In this document: in pieces, positions 33,431 through 47,418 of the stretch | Position numbering within the stretch: position 1 is the first letter of the stretch | How the letters are laid out: the number at the start of each line of letters is the position of its first letter | Origin: an uncultured Alphaproteobacteria bacterium | GTDB lineage: Bacteria; Pseudomonadota; Alphaproteobacteria; HIMB59 | Length of the DNA: 64,000 nucleotides | Reading direction: 5' to 3' | NCBI GenBank assembly: GCA_902621205.1 | Contig: CACNLH010000001.1 | Location: 108,592 to 172,591 of the forward strand | Notes under the pieces: model-generated | What the model saw: only the letters and a program-made list of their open reading frames with translations | The model's database searches: none | What the model was told of the DNA's origin: nothing | Program-made: the position numbers and the translations under genes

Positions 33431-33505
33431 TGGCGGTTCTGCAAGGATTCGAACCCTGAATTCTTGATCCGTAGTCAAGTGTGATATCCGTTTCACCACA
33501 GAACC
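33431..33505 (-). tRNA. tRNA-Arg (anticodon ACG)
   Basis: A 75-nt cloverleaf on the minus strand. The acceptor stem GGTTCTG/CAGAACC is followed by discriminator G and an encoded CCA. The anticodon stem CTTGA/TCAAG encloses the loop CTACGGA, giving anticodon ACG (A34 would be edited to inosine). The T-arm contains GGTTCGAATCC. Its 5' half is the core of the repeated attachment-site sequence found twice more downstream at 34928 and 36242. The tRNA therefore lies at the edge of an integration hotspot but remains intact. Confidence 0.96.
33467..33505 (-). repeat. Attachment-site core A (5' half of tRNA-Arg)
   Basis: These 39 nt are tRNA positions 1-39: the 5' acceptor strand, D-arm and anticodon arm through the loop. 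They recur identically at 34928-34966 and 36242-36280 in the same orientation. Crossover within the anticodon loop region by a tyrosine recombinase would explain why the 5' half, rather than the commoner 3' half, is duplicated. Confidence 0.85.
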
Positions 33506-33559
33506 TTAATCTAAGTATATCACCATAATTCAATCGTTGTACTTAATCCTACGAAACTC

Positions 33560-33582
33560 ATTACGGAGCCATTACGGGCAAC
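33560..33582 (+). repeat. Paired direct repeats, TTACGGG type (cassette 1, left end)
   Basis: ATTACGGAGCC (33560) is followed by ATTACGGGCAA (33571), an 11-bp period, one helical turn. The pair begins 54 nt beyond the tRNA 5' end, exactly the spacing seen after cores B and C. Paired short direct repeats flanking a core are typical of integrase arm-type binding sites. Confidence 0.7.
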
Positions 33583-33600
33583 GAATGAAGAAGGGATATA

Positions 33601-33669
33601 ATGGGAAGTATAACTAAACGAAAGATGAAAGATGTAAAGGGCAATCGCTATGTCTTATTTCAAGCATAG
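33601..33669 (+). pseudogene. Integrase N-terminal fragment (22 codons)
   Basis: The ATG at 33601 opens MGSITKRKMKDVKGNRYVLF, then QA and a TAG. This resembles the beginning of the arm-binding domain of phage-type tyrosine integrases (MGxIxKRKxKDGxxRYxxQ) and stops where such proteins normally continue. It starts 96 nt from the tRNA 5' end, pointing away from it, the usual place for an integrase gene. It is followed by a small unexplained frame from GTG 33670. It is too short for certainty. Confidence 0.45.
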
Positions 33670-33773
33670 GTGAACATGAAGGGACAAAGATATTCCCGAG
33701 CTTTTCAATATATGCGGGAAGCAAGGGCTTACATTAGCGAACAAAAGGGATTAATCAGTAGAGGTTGTTTGTC

Positions 33774-33807
33774 GGGGGGAGGGAACAACGTTGTGTTTCC
33801 TCCCCCC
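33774..33807. terminator. GC-rich hairpin, possible terminator
   Basis: GGGGGGAGG (33774-33782) pairs perfectly with CCTCCCCCC (33799-33807), and the inner bases extend the stem by a few pairs. It lies about 30 nt beyond the stop of the minus-strand gene at 33841. No clear T-run follows on either strand, so Rho-independent termination is only plausible. Such a GC stem is exceptional in this AT-rich window. Confidence 0.45.
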
Positions 33808-33840
33808 TTAGTAGTGCAGAGGTGTGAAATCTTCAAACCT

Positions 33841-34245
33841 CTAGTTAAAGGGGTAAAGTTCCCAAACTGCTTTGCCATCTGCATCGGCTTCGTAAGTAAA
33901 TGCGTAAAATTTACCATTCAGTTCAGATAACGCTTCAGATGTGGTTTCGAATATAGCGCCGCCTCTAAAAGAAGTGCCTCCATCTTTCCTCTGGTTTCCG
34001 ACACCCGTAGCTTTATATGTGGCGACACCTTCTGCACACATTACAACCCCAGCATAGGCATTTCCTGCCCATGAACCATCTGGTCTCATTTCGGCTGTAA
34101 ATGCGCCCATAGACTGAACATCATGACCTAGCATCGTTCCGCTCCCTTCAGCAGTAATGTCCATAGCAGGTAAACCATATTTACCAGAGTCCATTGGCTT
34201 ATTAGTTTCCTGTAATGTCATTGTTCCAATTTTATCACCAAGCAT
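33841..34245 (-). CDS. Conserved-type hypothetical protein (small beta-barrel-like)
   Basis: A 134-residue cytosolic protein rich in glycine and beta-forming segments. It begins MLGDKIGTMTLQETNKPMDS and has GSGTMLGHDVQSMGAFTAEM, then RPDGSWAG. It ends with LSELNGKFYAFTYEADADGK. The pattern recalls a family of uncharacterised proteins resembling allene-oxide-cyclase/DUF3224 barrels. This is recognised from memory, not searched. Its GC content is clearly higher than that of flanking genes, indicating recent transfer as cassette cargo. It is divergent from the cupin gene. Confidence 0.65.
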   Translation of the reverse strand: MLGDKIGTMTLQETNKPMDSGKYGLPAMDITAEGSGTMLGHDVQSMGAFTAEMRPDGSWAGNAYAGVVMCAEGVATYKATGVGNQRKDGGTSFRGGAIFETTSEALSELNGKFYAFTYEADADGKAVWELYPFN

Positions 34246-34381
34246 TGTTAATCTCCTTTTCTAAAATTTATAAAATAAATGATTATAATAATTACTTGTT
34301 AAGAGTATTATTTCTTTTTTTAGATATATATATTACTCATTTGCAATAAATAATATTTTTTTAGATGTTATAAGAGTTTAT

Positions 34382-34813
34382 ATGTATATTTATATTAAAA
34401 AATTTAGGTTTATATTTCTTTTTTCAATTTTTCTATTTAGTTTTGGATTTTTACATTCTGAGGAACATCTCAAAACTAAAATTTCCCCTGTTCTAAAATC
34501 TGCAACTACAATTTTAGGAAATGAAATATATTATCCTGATGGAAAAGCTGAAATAATGTCATTTATAGTTGAGGTGCCTCCTGGTGGTGTAACTCCAAAC
34601 CATGTTCATTCTTACCCTGTTTATATTTACATTATGGAAGGAGAGATGACATATACTTGGGAAGACGGAACAGTTACTATTTACAAACCTGGTAAAGCAT
34701 ATATAGAGGATAGTAAAAGTGCTCATTACGGAAAAAATTTAGGTGACATAACACTCAAAGCGCTGATAGTGGGCATTGGTGCAGAGGGTATAAAATTTAC
34801 AACCTCTCCTTAA
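34382..34813 (+). CDS. Secreted cupin-domain protein
   Basis: A 143-residue protein with an N-terminal signal sequence (FRFIFLFSIFLFSFGFLHSE) and a single cupin_2 barrel. Motif 1 is in PPGGVTPNHVHSYPVYIYIM, with the histidines and glutamate that usually bind metal, followed by EGEMTYTWEDG. Motif 2 is in YIEDSKSAHYGKNLG. The activity is unknown. It is plus-strand cargo of cassette 1 and ends 24 nt before the right-end repeat pair. Confidence 0.8.
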   Translation: MYIYIKKFRFIFLFSIFLFSFGFLHSEEHLKTKISPVLKSATTILGNEIYYPDGKAEIMSFIVEVPPGGVTPNHVHSYPVYIYIMEGEMTYTWEDGTVTIYKPGKAYIEDSKSAHYGKNLGDITLKALIVGIGAEGIKFTTSP

Positions 34814-34837
34814 AACTAAATTTTTAGCTATATTTTC

Positions 34838-34860
34838 ATTACGGGCTTATTACGGGCAAC
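34838..34860 (+). repeat. Paired direct repeats, TTACGGG type (cassette 1, right end)
   Basis: ATTACGGGCTT (34838) and ATTACGGGCAA (34849) repeat with an 11-bp period and nearly match the pair at 33560-33582. The pair starts 90 nt before core B, the same distance as the AACACACT pair before core C. Same type at both ends marks the limits of cassette 1. Confidence 0.7.
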
Positions 34861-34880
34861 ATAGATAAAATGTTGTTAAA

Positions 34881-34992
34881 GCTCAAAGAATAGTATTGAT
34901 AATAAATGAATTAAAGAGACGTAGGATATCCGTAGTCAAGTGTGATATCCGTTTCACCACAGAACCATTAGCTTGATTTATATACTCTTTTT
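34881..34992 (-). repeat. Attachment-site copy B (112-bp repeat containing tRNA-Arg 5' half)
   Basis: It matches 36195-36306 with one mismatch in 112 bp (107 bp identical from 34886). The central 39 nt (34928-34966) equal tRNA-Arg positions 1-39. The tRNA 3' half is missing, so this copy is not a functional tRNA. Flanks on both sides of the core are also shared with copy C but not with the tRNA locus itself. Confidence 0.9.
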
Positions 34993-35020
34993 TTAAATAA
35001 TAAACTTCTATGGATGCGCT

Positions 35021-35042
35021 ATAACACACTCATAACACACTG
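35021..35042 (+). repeat. Paired direct repeats, AACACACT type (cassette 2, left end)
   Basis: ATAACACACTC (35021) and ATAACACACTG (35032) repeat with an 11-bp period. They start 54 nt after core B. The lyase-like gene begins 11 nt downstream, leaving almost no room for a separate promoter, so its transcription may start within the attachment region. Confidence 0.7.
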
Positions 35043-35053
35043 AATAATTATTT

Positions 35054-36112
35054 ATGAAAATCTTCTTAGCCTTATTTTTATTACTACCTAGTTTGTTATG
35101 GGGATTGACATTTAAAGATGGCAAACAGGTCAATGATGGCTTAACTGACTCTTTCTCAGAAAAATACACTATTAGTAAAAAAAACTTTACCCTTCCATTT
35201 GACGTCTCCTCTGGAGTGCGTGAATGGAGACTTAGCTCTAGAGCCTTAGGTTTAAAACATCAAATACAAGTAGTTTCTAAAGATGAAGGACATCCTGTAA
35301 GAGATGGAAATCTTAGTATTAGATTTGAAGTAAGACCAGGCGAATGTGGAGGTAAGGGCAAAATTAATGACTGTAATAGAAATAATGGAAAATCTGAAAG
35401 AGCCGAAATAGCATCTATTGACGAATGGGGTAAAGGAGAAATGTGGTATGCATGGTCAATTTATTTACAACCTGAATTTACAGAATTACATCCAAGGTCT
35501 AGTCTTAAACTTCTGCAATTTCATAGCAGGCCTGATGATGTTTACCCTGACCAACACTTTAGCTTTGAGGCGAAAGATGGTTCATACACACCTTCTAATA
35601 ATATTAATAAAGAAAAAGGCCTGTCTTTATCTAAGACAGATATGATTGGTAGATGGAATGACATATTAATGCACGTAAATTGGTCATACGAAAATGATGG
35701 TTACTATAAAATATGGGCAAATGGTGATTTGATTTATGATTATAGTGGCAAAACATTATGGGATAAAAATATTAGAGCAAACTTTAAGTTTGGAATTTAT
35801 AGAAACTGGTTGGAACATACATGGGAAACGGGCTCTGATGGTGGCACTACGATTGTTTATTTTGATGAGATTAGAATAGGCAAAACTAAAGATGAGGTTA
35901 ACTCAAACCTTAGTCAGTTAGGTGAGCAAGAATATTTCTACAAAAAAAGTAAGATGGAACTTCTTGATGAAGAAATTAAACTTATTGAAGAACAGATTTC
36001 AAAACTAAAAAAAGAAGTTGTTGAAAATTATGATATAGAAAAGTCAAAAAAAATTAATGATTTCAAGAAGAAATTAAGAAAACTAGAATATGAGAAGGCA
36101 AAAGAAAAATGA
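35054..36112 (+). CDS. Secreted polysaccharide lyase-like protein (heparin lyase I-like fold)
   Basis: A 352-residue protein with a signal peptide (MKIFLALFLLLPSLLWG). Its jelly-roll-type domain resembles the Polysacc_lyase family (PF14099 type): FEVRPGECGGKGKINDCNRN, then KSERAEI, MWYAWSIYLQ, a WNDILMHVNWSYENDGYYKI strand pair, IWANGDLIYDY, and YFDEIRIG. A charged coiled coil of ~55 residues closes the protein. It likely cleaves or binds an extracellular polysaccharide. It is the sole cargo of cassette 2 and is homologous to the protein at 36361. Confidence 0.7.
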   Translation: MKIFLALFLLLPSLLWGLTFKDGKQVNDGLTDSFSEKYTISKKNFTLPFDVSSGVREWRLSSRALGLKHQIQVVSKDEGHPVRDGNLSIRFEVRPGECGGKGKINDCNRNNGKSERAEIASIDEWGKGEMWYAWSIYLQPEFTELHPRSSLKLLQFHSRPDDVYPDQHFSFEAKDGSYTPSNNINKEKGLSLSKTDMIGRWNDILMHVNWSYENDGYYKIWANGDLIYDYSGKTLWDKNIRANFKFGIYRNWLEHTWETGSDGGTTIVYFDEIRIGKTKDEVNSNLSQLGEQEYFYKKSKMELLDEEIKLIEEQISKLKKEVVENYDIEKSKKINDFKKKLRKLEYEKAKEK

Positions 36113-36151
36113 GAATTTTATTAGCCCTATTGTAATAAATAGGAACAGTTC

Positions 36152-36173
36152 ATAACACACTTACAACACACTA
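36152..36173 (+). repeat. Paired direct repeats, AACACACT type (cassette 2, right end)
   Basis: ATAACACACTT (36152) and ACAACACACTA (36163) repeat with an 11-bp period. The pair starts 90 nt before core C, matching the geometry of the cassette 1 right end, and repeats the motif of the cassette 2 left end. Confidence 0.7.
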
Positions 36174-36194
36174 CAATGATGAAACAGTGTATAT

Positions 36195-36306
36195 GCTCTA
36201 AGAATAGTATTGATAATAAATGAATTAAAGAGACGTAGGATATCCGTAGTCAAGTGTGATATCCGTTTCACCACAGAACCATTAGCTTGATTTATATACT
36301 CTTTTT
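36195..36306 (-). repeat. Attachment-site copy C (112-bp repeat containing tRNA-Arg 5' half)
   Basis: The partner of copy B, offset by 1314 bp, with core 36242-36280. Its side beyond the tRNA 5' end could be the ancestral upstream region of the tRNA gene, moved away by insertions. An AT-rich TATATA-containing stretch just upstream of the tRNA-like 5' end would suit a tRNA promoter. Confidence 0.9.
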
Positions 36307-36334
36307 ATTAATAATAAAATTTAATACAATGTTC

Positions 36335-36357
36335 GTTAGGGACTCAATACGGGCAAA
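36335..36357 (+). repeat. Paired direct repeats, degenerate TACGGG type (cassette 3, left end)
   Basis: GTTAGGGACTC (36335) and AATACGGGCAA (36346) have the same 11-bp period and begin 54 nt after core C. The second copy shares ACGGGCAA with the cassette 1 pairs, but the first is diverged. The next gene starts 4 nt later. Confidence 0.6.
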
Positions 36358-36360
36358 ACT

Positions 36361-37263
36361 ATGAAGACATTCTTAACTTTATTTATATTTTTGCCAAGTT
36401 TAGTGCTTGCCTCAAGTTTTAGTGAAATTAAAAAAGCTTTAAAACAAGATGGTTTTGGAGAAATAATCCCTGAGGAACTTCATCCATTAATCTCTCCAAA
36501 TGCAAAAAATCCTATATCAGTTAGCGGCAATTCAATTATTGGAGATAAATCTATAAAGTTTGAAGTTAATAATGGAGAGTGCGGAGAAGAACCTAAATCA
36601 AGTGACTGTGATACAGATAGAGAGAGGTCTGAAATATATTACAGCCACGAAAAGTGGAAAAAAGAGAAGTGGTATAAGTTTAATATTTTTCTTCCAAAAG
36701 ATTACAATTCTATTGCCCCTGCAAAAATGTCTTTAATCCAATGGAAAAGACATAACCCATCTAAAGTTTTAGTCATGTTTCAACACACTCATGCAGGATT
36801 AACTTTTAACAGGAATAAAGACTCTTTTGAGGACTCCCACATAATTTTAAAAAGCAATGATGTACTTTTAGGCCAATGGACAGAAATAATTTTTAACACA
36901 AATTGGCATCCAGATGAGGACAAAGGTTTCATGAAGGTATGGATTGATGGGATTTTAAAAATAGATTTTAAAGGAACTAGCAATACATCTAAGGGTGAGG
37001 AACTAAATCTTAGATATGGACTGTACGCCTCTGCCATATCACGTTATAAAAAAGCATTTAATACTGAGATAATTCCACAGCGTATCGTTTATTTTGATGG
37101 TGTAAATGCAGAGTCAAAATGTGAAAAGTTACTAGATAAAGCTAAATGTAATAATTTAACTTCTCAAACAATCGAAAAATACGAATTATTTATGTATGAT
37201 AAAAATGATATAAAATTTCACAATCATTCTGTTGTTAAATTACCTATAAACTTTTTGAAATAA
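36361..37263 (+). CDS. Secreted polysaccharide lyase-like protein, paralogue of the 35054 product
   Basis: A 300-residue protein with a signal peptide (MKTFLTLFIFLPSLVLA) closely resembling that of the cassette 2 protein. It shares the fold markers: KFEVNNGECGEEPKSSDCDT then RERSEIYY, KEKWYKFNIFLPKDY, GQWTEIIFNTNW, GFMKVWIDGILKIDF, and QRIVYFDGVNA. It lacks the C-terminal coiled coil. Same family, different lineage, so neighbouring cassettes carry divergent relatives rather than a recent duplication. The channel gene follows with its ATG directly after the stop. Confidence 0.68.
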   Translation: MKTFLTLFIFLPSLVLASSFSEIKKALKQDGFGEIIPEELHPLISPNAKNPISVSGNSIIGDKSIKFEVNNGECGEEPKSSDCDTDRERSEIYYSHEKWKKEKWYKFNIFLPKDYNSIAPAKMSLIQWKRHNPSKVLVMFQHTHAGLTFNRNKDSFEDSHIILKSNDVLLGQWTEIIFNTNWHPDEDKGFMKVWIDGILKIDFKGTSNTSKGEELNLRYGLYASAISRYKKAFNTEIIPQRIVYFDGVNAESKCEKLLDKAKCNNLTSQTIEKYELFMYDKNDIKFHNHSVVKLPINFLK

Positions 37264-46437: not shown

Positions 46438-47418
46438 TTATTTACTAGGATTTTTTTCTTTATAAGTTTTTTCTAAACTTATGTCATCAACTTCAGTATA
46501 TATTTGAGTTGTAGATAACGAACTATGTCCTAATAATTCTTGAATTATTCTTAAATCCCCACCATTTTTTAATATGTGTGTTGCAAAACTATGTCTTAAT
46601 GAGTGAGGTGTTGCTGTTTTTGGTAGCCCCAAATTAACTCTGGCATTCTTCAAATCTCTTTGGAAAGCCGAGGCATTAAGTGGATTACCTCTATCTCCCA
46701 CAAATATCGAAACATCACTTGGTAAATCATATGGTATTTCTTTTAGATAATTTTCTAATGAGTTAGCTACAATATCAAGAACTGGCACTAATCTCTCTTT
46801 ATTACCTTTGCCCAAGATAGTAAGAGAATTTTTATCAATTAAATGGCTTTTAGTAATAGATAGGGCCTCATTTATTCGTAGCCCACATCCGTACAAAAGA
46901 TAAAGCAAAGCTATATTTCTTTTTTGAACCCAGCTTTTTTTTGATATTTTTTTTAACTCTTCAATTAAAAGATCAATATCTCCCTCTGCTATAGGTTTAG
47001 GAAGGGATCTTGGAATTTTTGGATTTTTTAATAATTGAACCTCGCTATAAGCAACTTTATATAAATCATTATTTAGAGATGAATACTTAAAAAAATTTTT
47101 AATAGAACTAATCGCTCTTCTTCTTGACCTTGCCGACAATGGTTTTTTATAAATATTTTTATATTTTCTATACTCACTGAGATCTGCCAACCAAGCCCTA
47201 AATGTTTGCAAATTTAAATCTTTTAAATTTGATAAAGATACAGAATTTCCATTGTAGAATTTAAAGAAAATTAAAAAGTCACATACATCAAAGCAGTACG
47301 ATCTATATGTGTTTTCCGAGTGGCCTTTTATGTCTTTTAAATAAGTAGCCCATTTATCAAAGTCTTGAATTGAGGATTTATCTATTTTTAACTGTTCTAA
47401 CAGTTCAATAAAATTCAT
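46438..47418 (-). CDS. xerC: Tyrosine recombinase XerC-type
   Basis: It resolves chromosome dimers at dif with its partner XerD. The 326-residue protein has an N-terminal SAM-like domain (NTYRSYCFDVCDFLIFFKFY) and the catalytic residues Arg in YGCGLRINEAL, Lys in LGKGNKERLVPV, His/Arg in PHSLRHSFATHIL, His in LLGHSSLSTTQ and nucleophile Tyr in IYTEVD. Divergent priA next door is the standard alphaproteobacterial context, so this is housekeeping and not island integrase. Confidence 0.92.
   Translation of the reverse strand: MNFIELLEQLKIDKSSIQDFDKWATYLKDIKGHSENTYRSYCFDVCDFLIFFKFYNGNSVSLSNLKDLNLQTFRAWLADLSEYRKYKNIYKKPLSARSRRRAISSIKNFFKYSSLNNDLYKVAYSEVQLLKNPKIPRSLPKPIAEGDIDLLIEELKKISKKSWVQKRNIALLYLLYGCGLRINEALSITKSHLIDKNSLTILGKGNKERLVPVLDIVANSLENYLKEIPYDLPSDVSIFVGDRGNPLNASAFQRDLKNARVNLGLPKTATPHSLRHSFATHILKNGGDLRIIQELLGHSSLSTTQIYTEVDDISLEKTYKEKNPSK

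Follow-up and report, generated by a model that had tools for sequence, protein, structure and literature searches.

Cis-mobilizable elements (CIMEs) have lost their integration and transfer genes, keep attL and attR and stand in tandem (PMC5704250), and 15 ssrA islands without an integration module in Dehalococcoides might be CIMEs (PMC3146451). Additive flexible genomic islands have been described in aquatic bacteria (PMC5217437, PMC10872708); those of Methylophilaceae range from 330 bp to 42 kb and are preceded by a varying number of repeats of the last 20 nt of tRNA-Lys (PMC10872708). Tycheposons span 4–200 kb, those of Methylophilaceae carrying a tyrosine recombinase (PMC10872708), and integron CALINs are arrays without integrase which are mobilisable by an integrase encoded elsewhere (PMC11389934). 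These descriptions follow the accessible passages of the cited works. Here, such systems are compared with an array of small gene cassettes at the tRNA-Arg(ACG) gene of an uncultured HIMB59-group alphaproteobacterium, located in a DNA stretch of 64,000 nucleotides (assembly GCA_902621205.1, contig CACNLH010000001.1, positions 108,592 to 172,591; hereafter the window).

The array most probably represents a stack of two integrase-less gene cassettes with predicted att ends, for whose integration and excision a tyrosine integrase acting in trans is the likely agent (probability roughly three in four). It comprises the following features (positions in the window):

33431..33505 (-): tRNA-Arg(ACG), the integration site
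33467..33505 (+): core copy 1, 39 nt, the 5' half of the intact tRNA-Arg(ACG)
33473..33479 (+): predicted 7-bp strand-exchange overlap AGTCAAG, between the inverted GGATATC/GATATCC of the cassette-type core
33467..34927 (no strand): cassette 1 (1461 bp from core to core)
33506..33555 (-): segment upstream of the tRNA that belongs to the left end of cassette 1 and presumably supplies the tRNA promoter
33556..33580 (+): left arm pair of cassette 1, CATTACGGAGC CATTACGGGC
33601..33765 (+): integrase-like N-terminal remnant with one in-frame TAG, cassette 1
33841..34245 (-): 134-aa protein of cassette 1, without match in Pfam, PHROG and PADLOC at the limits used
34308..34309 (no strand): approximate fusion point in cassette 1, between a 792-bp left unit and a 621-bp cupin unit
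34382..34813 (+): cupin-domain protein (PF07883), cargo of cassette 1
34836..34858 (+): right arm pair of cassette 1
34862..34927 (+): 66-nt module conserved among right ends, in cassette 1 with 65/66 to the consensus
34928..34966 (+): core copy 2, 39 nt
34928..36241 (no strand): cassette 2 (1314 bp from core to core)
35021..35041 (+): left arm pair of cassette 2, ATAACACACTC ATAACACACT
35054..36112 (+): cargo of cassette 2, a polysaccharide-lyase-family protein (PF14099) that begins like a signal peptide
36152..36172 (+): right arm pair of cassette 2
36176..36241 (+): 66-nt module conserved among right ends, in cassette 2 with 57/66 to the consensus
36242..36280 (+): core copy 3, 39 nt
36335..36355 (+): left arm pair, apparently decayed (9/10 in genome G008), belonging to a third, older unit
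36361..37263 (+): second PF14099 lyase, in the older unit, which has no right core in the window

An earlier note on this DNA had reported the 39-nt 5' half of the tRNA at 33467, 34928 and 36242 in the same orientation, and the three copies indeed have identical letters. It had further placed direct-repeat pairs with an 11-bp period at fixed distances from the cores. Four of these are strong (33560, 8/10; 35021, 10/10; 34838 and 36152, 9/10 each), and the fifth at 36335 is weak (5/10 by eye) and was missed by the pair scan. The stretch at 36335 grouped with the other window pairs at 79 % identity and looks like a decayed pair, since the same place is occupied by a 9/10 pair in G008. The absence of an intact recombinase from both units was confirmed, as all three PF00589 matches of this genome are located outside the two cassettes. 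The att-site architecture proposed there (arm pair, core, arm pair) recurs with conserved spacing in the cassettes of relatives. As judged from its sequence, cassette 1 consists of two fused units that have lost the core between them; its 621-bp cupin unit is found alone between cores in G021, G026 and G034. Relatives of the older lyase unit are core-to-core cassettes in G004, G010, G012, G025, G029 and G068.

The relatives compared are HIMB59-group alphaproteobacteria, mostly represented by single-cell genomes. The tRNA-Arg region or a sister tRNA-Arg was matched in 48 of the 52 genomes of the genus, and 42 tRNA-Arg(ACG) loci (the window's included) plus one sister-tRNA-Arg locus in G011 were examined. 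Altogether they contain 32 cassettes of 649–2526 bp with one to six genes each, one of them at the sister tRNA-Arg. With an arm pair of 11-bp period called present at an identity of at least 8/10, pairs were found at the fixed distance at 26 of 32 left ends, at 25 of 32 right ends and at both ends of 23 cassettes. In random 10-nt-wide searches of these loci, a pair of at least 8/10 is expected by chance at 0.92 %, one of at least 9/10 at 0.13 %. The pairs fall into several types (TTACGGG/TATACGGG, TACACAC/AACACAC and TACCGG), which match within a cassette and differ between cassettes. Among 17 distinct cassettes, the left and right pair of one cassette agree in 15.9 of 21 letters compared to 12.5 upon permutation, a match equalled in 1 of 10000 permutations. 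With one cassette per cargo family, the agreement is 16.2 of 21 versus 12.1 permuted (p = 3e-5, n = 10), and without the G011 sister-tRNA cassette, which is also outside the 42-locus counts, p = 6e-5 (n = 9). The pattern TACGGG-N5-TACGGG occurs 25 times in the 52 genomes (reversed control, once), 24 times at cassette-end distance and once within a composite unit, and four of the five occurrences of TACACAC-N4-TACACAC are at cassette ends.

The 66-nt right-end module precedes the core at 31 of 32 right ends, with 56–65 of 66 letters conserved whatever the cargo. At E <= 1e-15 it was found in 25 of 162 genomes of the order, all belonging to this genus, with short matches only in seven further genomes of the order; among 385 genomes of the class, three of this genus matched strongly and three others over 20–48 nt. 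Within the core, AGTCAAG is kept in 69 of 75 copies examined. At 27 of 32 right ends the core is preceded by GGAT, generating the inverted GGATATC/GATATCC around AGTCAAG, where 41 of 43 tRNA loci have CTTG instead. AGTCAAG is the predicted strand-exchange overlap. A core with paired arm sites at fixed distance, i.e. the layout of a tyrosine-integrase attP, is present in the same 23 cassettes, and the same layout also stands beside intact integrases at tRNA-Gly. This end layout has precedent, since the attP of Cluster J mycobacteriophages is described, in the passages available of that study, with 10-bp direct-repeat arm-type pairs on both sides of a tRNA core (PMC3706429).

Core-to-core cassettes number 0, 1 and 2 in 19, 15 and 8 of the 42 loci, respectively. 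The 19 loci without a second core include G017, the right core of which is too degraded for calling although the cassette-1 genes are retained, as well as G016, G020 and G027, in which the older third unit is present; the G017 unit was cut at a fixed length for the comparison of cassette identities. Cassette 1 of the window adjoins the tRNA in most carriers and occupies the second position in G028, and a cassette with a 300-aa lyase leads the array in G025, G010 and G012 and holds the second place in G004, G029 and G068. Of the 23 occupied loci, 17 have a 250-nt stretch behind the last core that is 92–99 % identical to a locus without a second core, and the tRNA-adjacent 250 nt of these 17 loci show only 38–59 % identity to that unoccupied site. 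Since the flank after the last core matches unoccupied loci and the tRNA-adjacent stretch does not, the array grows and shrinks in steps of entire units, with the cuts at the core. Nested series such as G016/G018/G028 and G071/G073 suggest that new units are inserted next to the tRNA.

The backbone next to the array falls into two main clades of ~84 % identity (G011b, i.e. the sister-tRNA locus, and G061 were omitted from the tree). The lyase cassettes of G029 and G068, one from each clade, share 98.6 % identity across their full 1105 bp, compared to 84.3 % for their backbone and 69 % for their right flanks. Likewise, cassette 1 is up to 96.8 % identical between clades (G005 versus G017), and the cupin units of G026 and G065 share 95.0 % identity at a backbone identity of 72.4 %. 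Mobility of the cassettes is supported by this comparison.

Genes for PF00589 recombinases are present in all 52 genomes, and none of the matches listed is located inside a tRNA-Arg(ACG) array. The integrase-like remnant, situated just inside the left pair of cassette 1, belongs to a family found in 13 of 162 genomes of the order, in 10 of which the integrase-like start contains in-frame stops. Its entire length can be aligned, weakly (31 %, E = 1.0), to the N-terminus of integrase P0008, and it has no Pfam match; among the matches listed (120 of 7285 homologous integrases), it matched weakly in three. The search for a source of the corresponding enzyme was extended to phages and viral contigs. 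Exact patterns of the core and the right-end module had 0 matches in viral contigs, the remnant had seven pattern matches there, none of which was confirmed, and neither the remnant nor a 216-bp window stretch (right end, core, left end) matched in phages. In 52 viral loci with relatives of the tRNA-Gly integrase, no tRNA-Arg(ACG) core was found within 9 mismatches. Outside the array, the window harbours a tyrosine-recombinase-family gene (46483-46962, (-), frame of 329 aa), probably encoding Xer, which recurs close to this locus in many of the genus' genomes.

Arm pairs also accompany integrases elsewhere: among 19 loci harbouring other PF00589 genes, 8 show a pair of 11-bp period no more than ~130 nt away from where the integrase begins. 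This is clearest at tRNA-Gly, where 6-kb elements of G000 and G060 carry an intact integrase and the arm pairs GATTGTGACAGGATTGTGACA and TTGTGACACAGTTGTGACAGA (that of G060 also a replication-initiator-like gene). The same two pairs are present in a 5.9-kb element at tRNA-Gly of G011, in which only integrase codons 1–18 align, directly beside the intact arm pair (L183, 6404-6457 in tRNA-forward orientation). Thus, elements with matching ends and an integrase, which the earlier note had named as support for its reading, exist at tRNA-Gly, and none was found at tRNA-Arg(ACG). Extra 3' halves of the tRNA were found in 10 of 20 fetched tRNA-Gly loci, with 13 units in all. The series from integrase-bearing (G000/G060) to integrase-less (G011) elements is proposed to reflect the origin of integrase-less cassettes.

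The cargo of the cassettes includes proteins of the polysaccharide-lyase family (PF14099) as well as cupin, HNH, HIT and PLD proteins and many unknowns. A 2035-bp block of a G028 cassette, starting directly inside the arm pair, recurs at 92.6 % identity on the G011 contig bearing an integrase at tRNA-Arg(TCT), and a tRNA-Gly cassette of G010 matches 998 bp of a G068 cassette at 84 %. Parts of a G072 cassette are found again in the G011 element at tRNA-Gly and close to the integrase that G008 has at tRNA-Arg(TCT). By these matches, cargo crosses between attachment frames. Eight cassette proteins had no match in PADLOC, and four other proteins (two from a tRNA-Arg cassette, two from tRNA-Gly units) all matched. 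Among the units concerned is a 1.2-kb one-gene cassette at tRNA-Gly (G060:C4, L152), the gene of which matches the candidate phage-defence family PDC-S11; it directly adjoins the 6-kb integrase element, and the arm types of the two differ. In G025 (L075), an arm pair without core was observed ~570 bp after core 2, inside a 2.1-kb unit which probably represents two cassettes fused by core loss. The second part of this unit contains HNH and PLD genes, the latter matching models of the Mokosh defence system (MkoB/MkoC).

Otherwise unlike cargo proteins begin with nearly the same signal-peptide-like sequence, near MKTLLALLLLIPSLSWG, in cassettes of G000, G011, G034, G066, G068 and G072 and in tRNA-Gly units of G011, G060 and G066, as if this leader were part of the capture frame. 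Furthermore, a third group of PF14099-like lyases, ~25 % identical to the cassette lyases, was observed beside tRNA-Gly in several genomes (e.g. L147 7071-7973).

A possible course of events may be outlined as follows. The integrase acting in trans would be provided by related satellite-like elements or phages; we infer movement in trans because a source integrase for tRNA-Arg(ACG) was not found in the searches. An incoming circle would recombine with the tRNA at the 7-bp overlap in the anticodon stem-loop (predicted at 33473-33479), and the cassette would rebuild the tRNA using its own 5' half and promoter. Older cassettes would thereby be pushed outward, such that the newest adjoins the tRNA. 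In view of the tRNA-Gly series and cassette 1, cassettes may originate from an integrase-bearing element which loses its integrase gene, with cargo taking its place just inside the arm pair.

Several observations weigh against trans-mobilised cassettes with attP-type ends. The genomes, phages and viral contigs searched yielded no confirmed integrase having these arms or this core, the remnant is weak by sequence, and pairs at both ends are present in only 4 of the 13 tRNA-Gly units. At the cassette ends, the G011 sister-tRNA cassette has unlike pairs, the cupin-first units of G021, G025, G026 and G034 have no left pair (those of G021 and G034 no right pair either), both G004 cassettes and the G006 cassette lack one or both pairs, and the first G004 cassette has no right-end module (17/66). 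Moreover, 6 of 23 occupied loci have no matching unoccupied site (57–69 %), and cassette 1 is partly decayed and common within clades. G004 (L066) and G006 (L084) combine the upstream region of one clade with the right flank of the other. Since these flanks come from different clades, a homologous exchange whose breakpoint lies within the array or close by is indicated, and homologous recombination evidently also reshapes the locus, which speaks against a purely site-specific process.

The same mixed flanks would fit an array of fossils, i.e. units which lost their integrases long ago, are immobile and change solely by homologous recombination between the 39-bp cores and flanks. The fused cassette 1 with its lost middle core and broken integrase-like start, the degraded right core of G017 and the failure to find an integrase source in the genomes searched are in line with this view. 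It is nevertheless unlikely: arm types are matched within and differ between cassettes, the G029/G068 cassette is conserved from core to core between unlike right flanks, and unoccupied sites match up to the last core, which together form the pattern of site-specific recombination. Movement by the host Xer recombinases, as in Xer-dependent modules, is very improbable. Xer-like genes with frames of 329 aa and ~286 aa, so named on account of their conservation, do recur through the genus, and the former is located on the contig of the tRNA, ~8-17 kb away, in several genomes. However, Xer reactions are not known to need paired arm sites 80–90 bp from the core, the arms vary by cassette, and the core lies within a tRNA, as for phage-type integrases. 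It is hardly credible that a single large island decayed in place, leaving tRNA halves as chance or gene-conversion repeats; some cargo is indeed common within clades, but the same kinds of ends enclose different cargo in different genomes, the unoccupied sites match, and the end module is repeated. Stacked cassettes moved by an integrase in trans remain the preferred explanation.

As a kind, these cassettes belong near CIMEs and additive flexible islands. They resemble the former in standing in tandem and in keeping att-type ends without an integrase of their own: cores delimit both ends of all 32 units, none of the PF00589 matches listed is located inside a tRNA-Arg(ACG) array, and the cargo lists contain none either. 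They differ in being units of one to six genes with several arm-pair types at one core and a genus-wide pool; the Dehalococcoides islands use a serine recombinase and other CIMEs derive from integrative and conjugative elements (ICEs) or integrative and mobilizable elements (IMEs), as far as the accessible text of these sources reports (PMC3146451, PMC5704250). With additive islands they share the gain and loss of whole units, evident from the varying cassette number and the 17 of 23 unoccupied-site matches. Small size is not new, since Methylophilaceae islands start at 330 bp (PMC10872708). What is resolved here in comparison to these islands is the end anatomy (type-matched arm pairs, end module, tRNA 5' half plus upstream segment) and an integrase-deletion intermediate, arm sites not being reported for the islands in the passages available.

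Cassettes and the integrase-carrying 6-kb tRNA-Gly elements, one with its replication-initiator-like gene, recall tycheposons and marine phage satellites in their tRNA borders and cargo in marine bacteria. The attribute "tycheposon-like" of the earlier note fails for the cassettes themselves, and their membership was rejected, on account of size (649–2526 bp versus 4–200 kb) and the absence of a tyrosine recombinase. Its view of non-autonomous mini-elements stacking at one tRNA is supported by the whole-cassette variation between relatives, with mobility supported by comparison; the 0, 1 or 2 cassettes in differing order at this tRNA-Arg and the retained pair spacing at other copies agree with the tests it had set. 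"Integron-like" holds as an analogy only: cassettes and CALINs of integrons are likewise arrays of small gene units without integrase, whereas the ends are here tRNA halves with direct-repeat arm pairs. A literature search of titles, abstract starts and passages, covering few subscription journals, yielded no description of this array or build, and no mention of the array was found in the accessible passages of PMC10734472, which includes the HIMB59 reference AG-916-M14.

Genomes of this genus comprise ~1.4 Mb (from a 99 % complete genome), for which the addition of single genes at a tRNA without a carried integrase would represent a very cheap gene gain. The matched arm types offer a testable code by which each cassette could be assigned to the integrase moving it, and the tRNA-Gly series, with the integrase present or reduced to 18 codons, makes the origin of cassettes directly testable. 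Tentatively, and with considerable doubt as to the whole, one may speculate on a genus-wide "tRNA cassette system", in which one-to-few-gene cassettes would have traded the integrase for cargo while keeping complete attP ends, several arm codes at one tRNA would serve different integrases in trans, and cargo would be swapped between frames at several tRNAs. If true, an ocean bacterium with a genome of 1.4 Mb would possess a capture system that resembles integrons but uses phage-type attachment sites, and the captured cargo would include predicted secreted lyases and candidate phage-defence genes.

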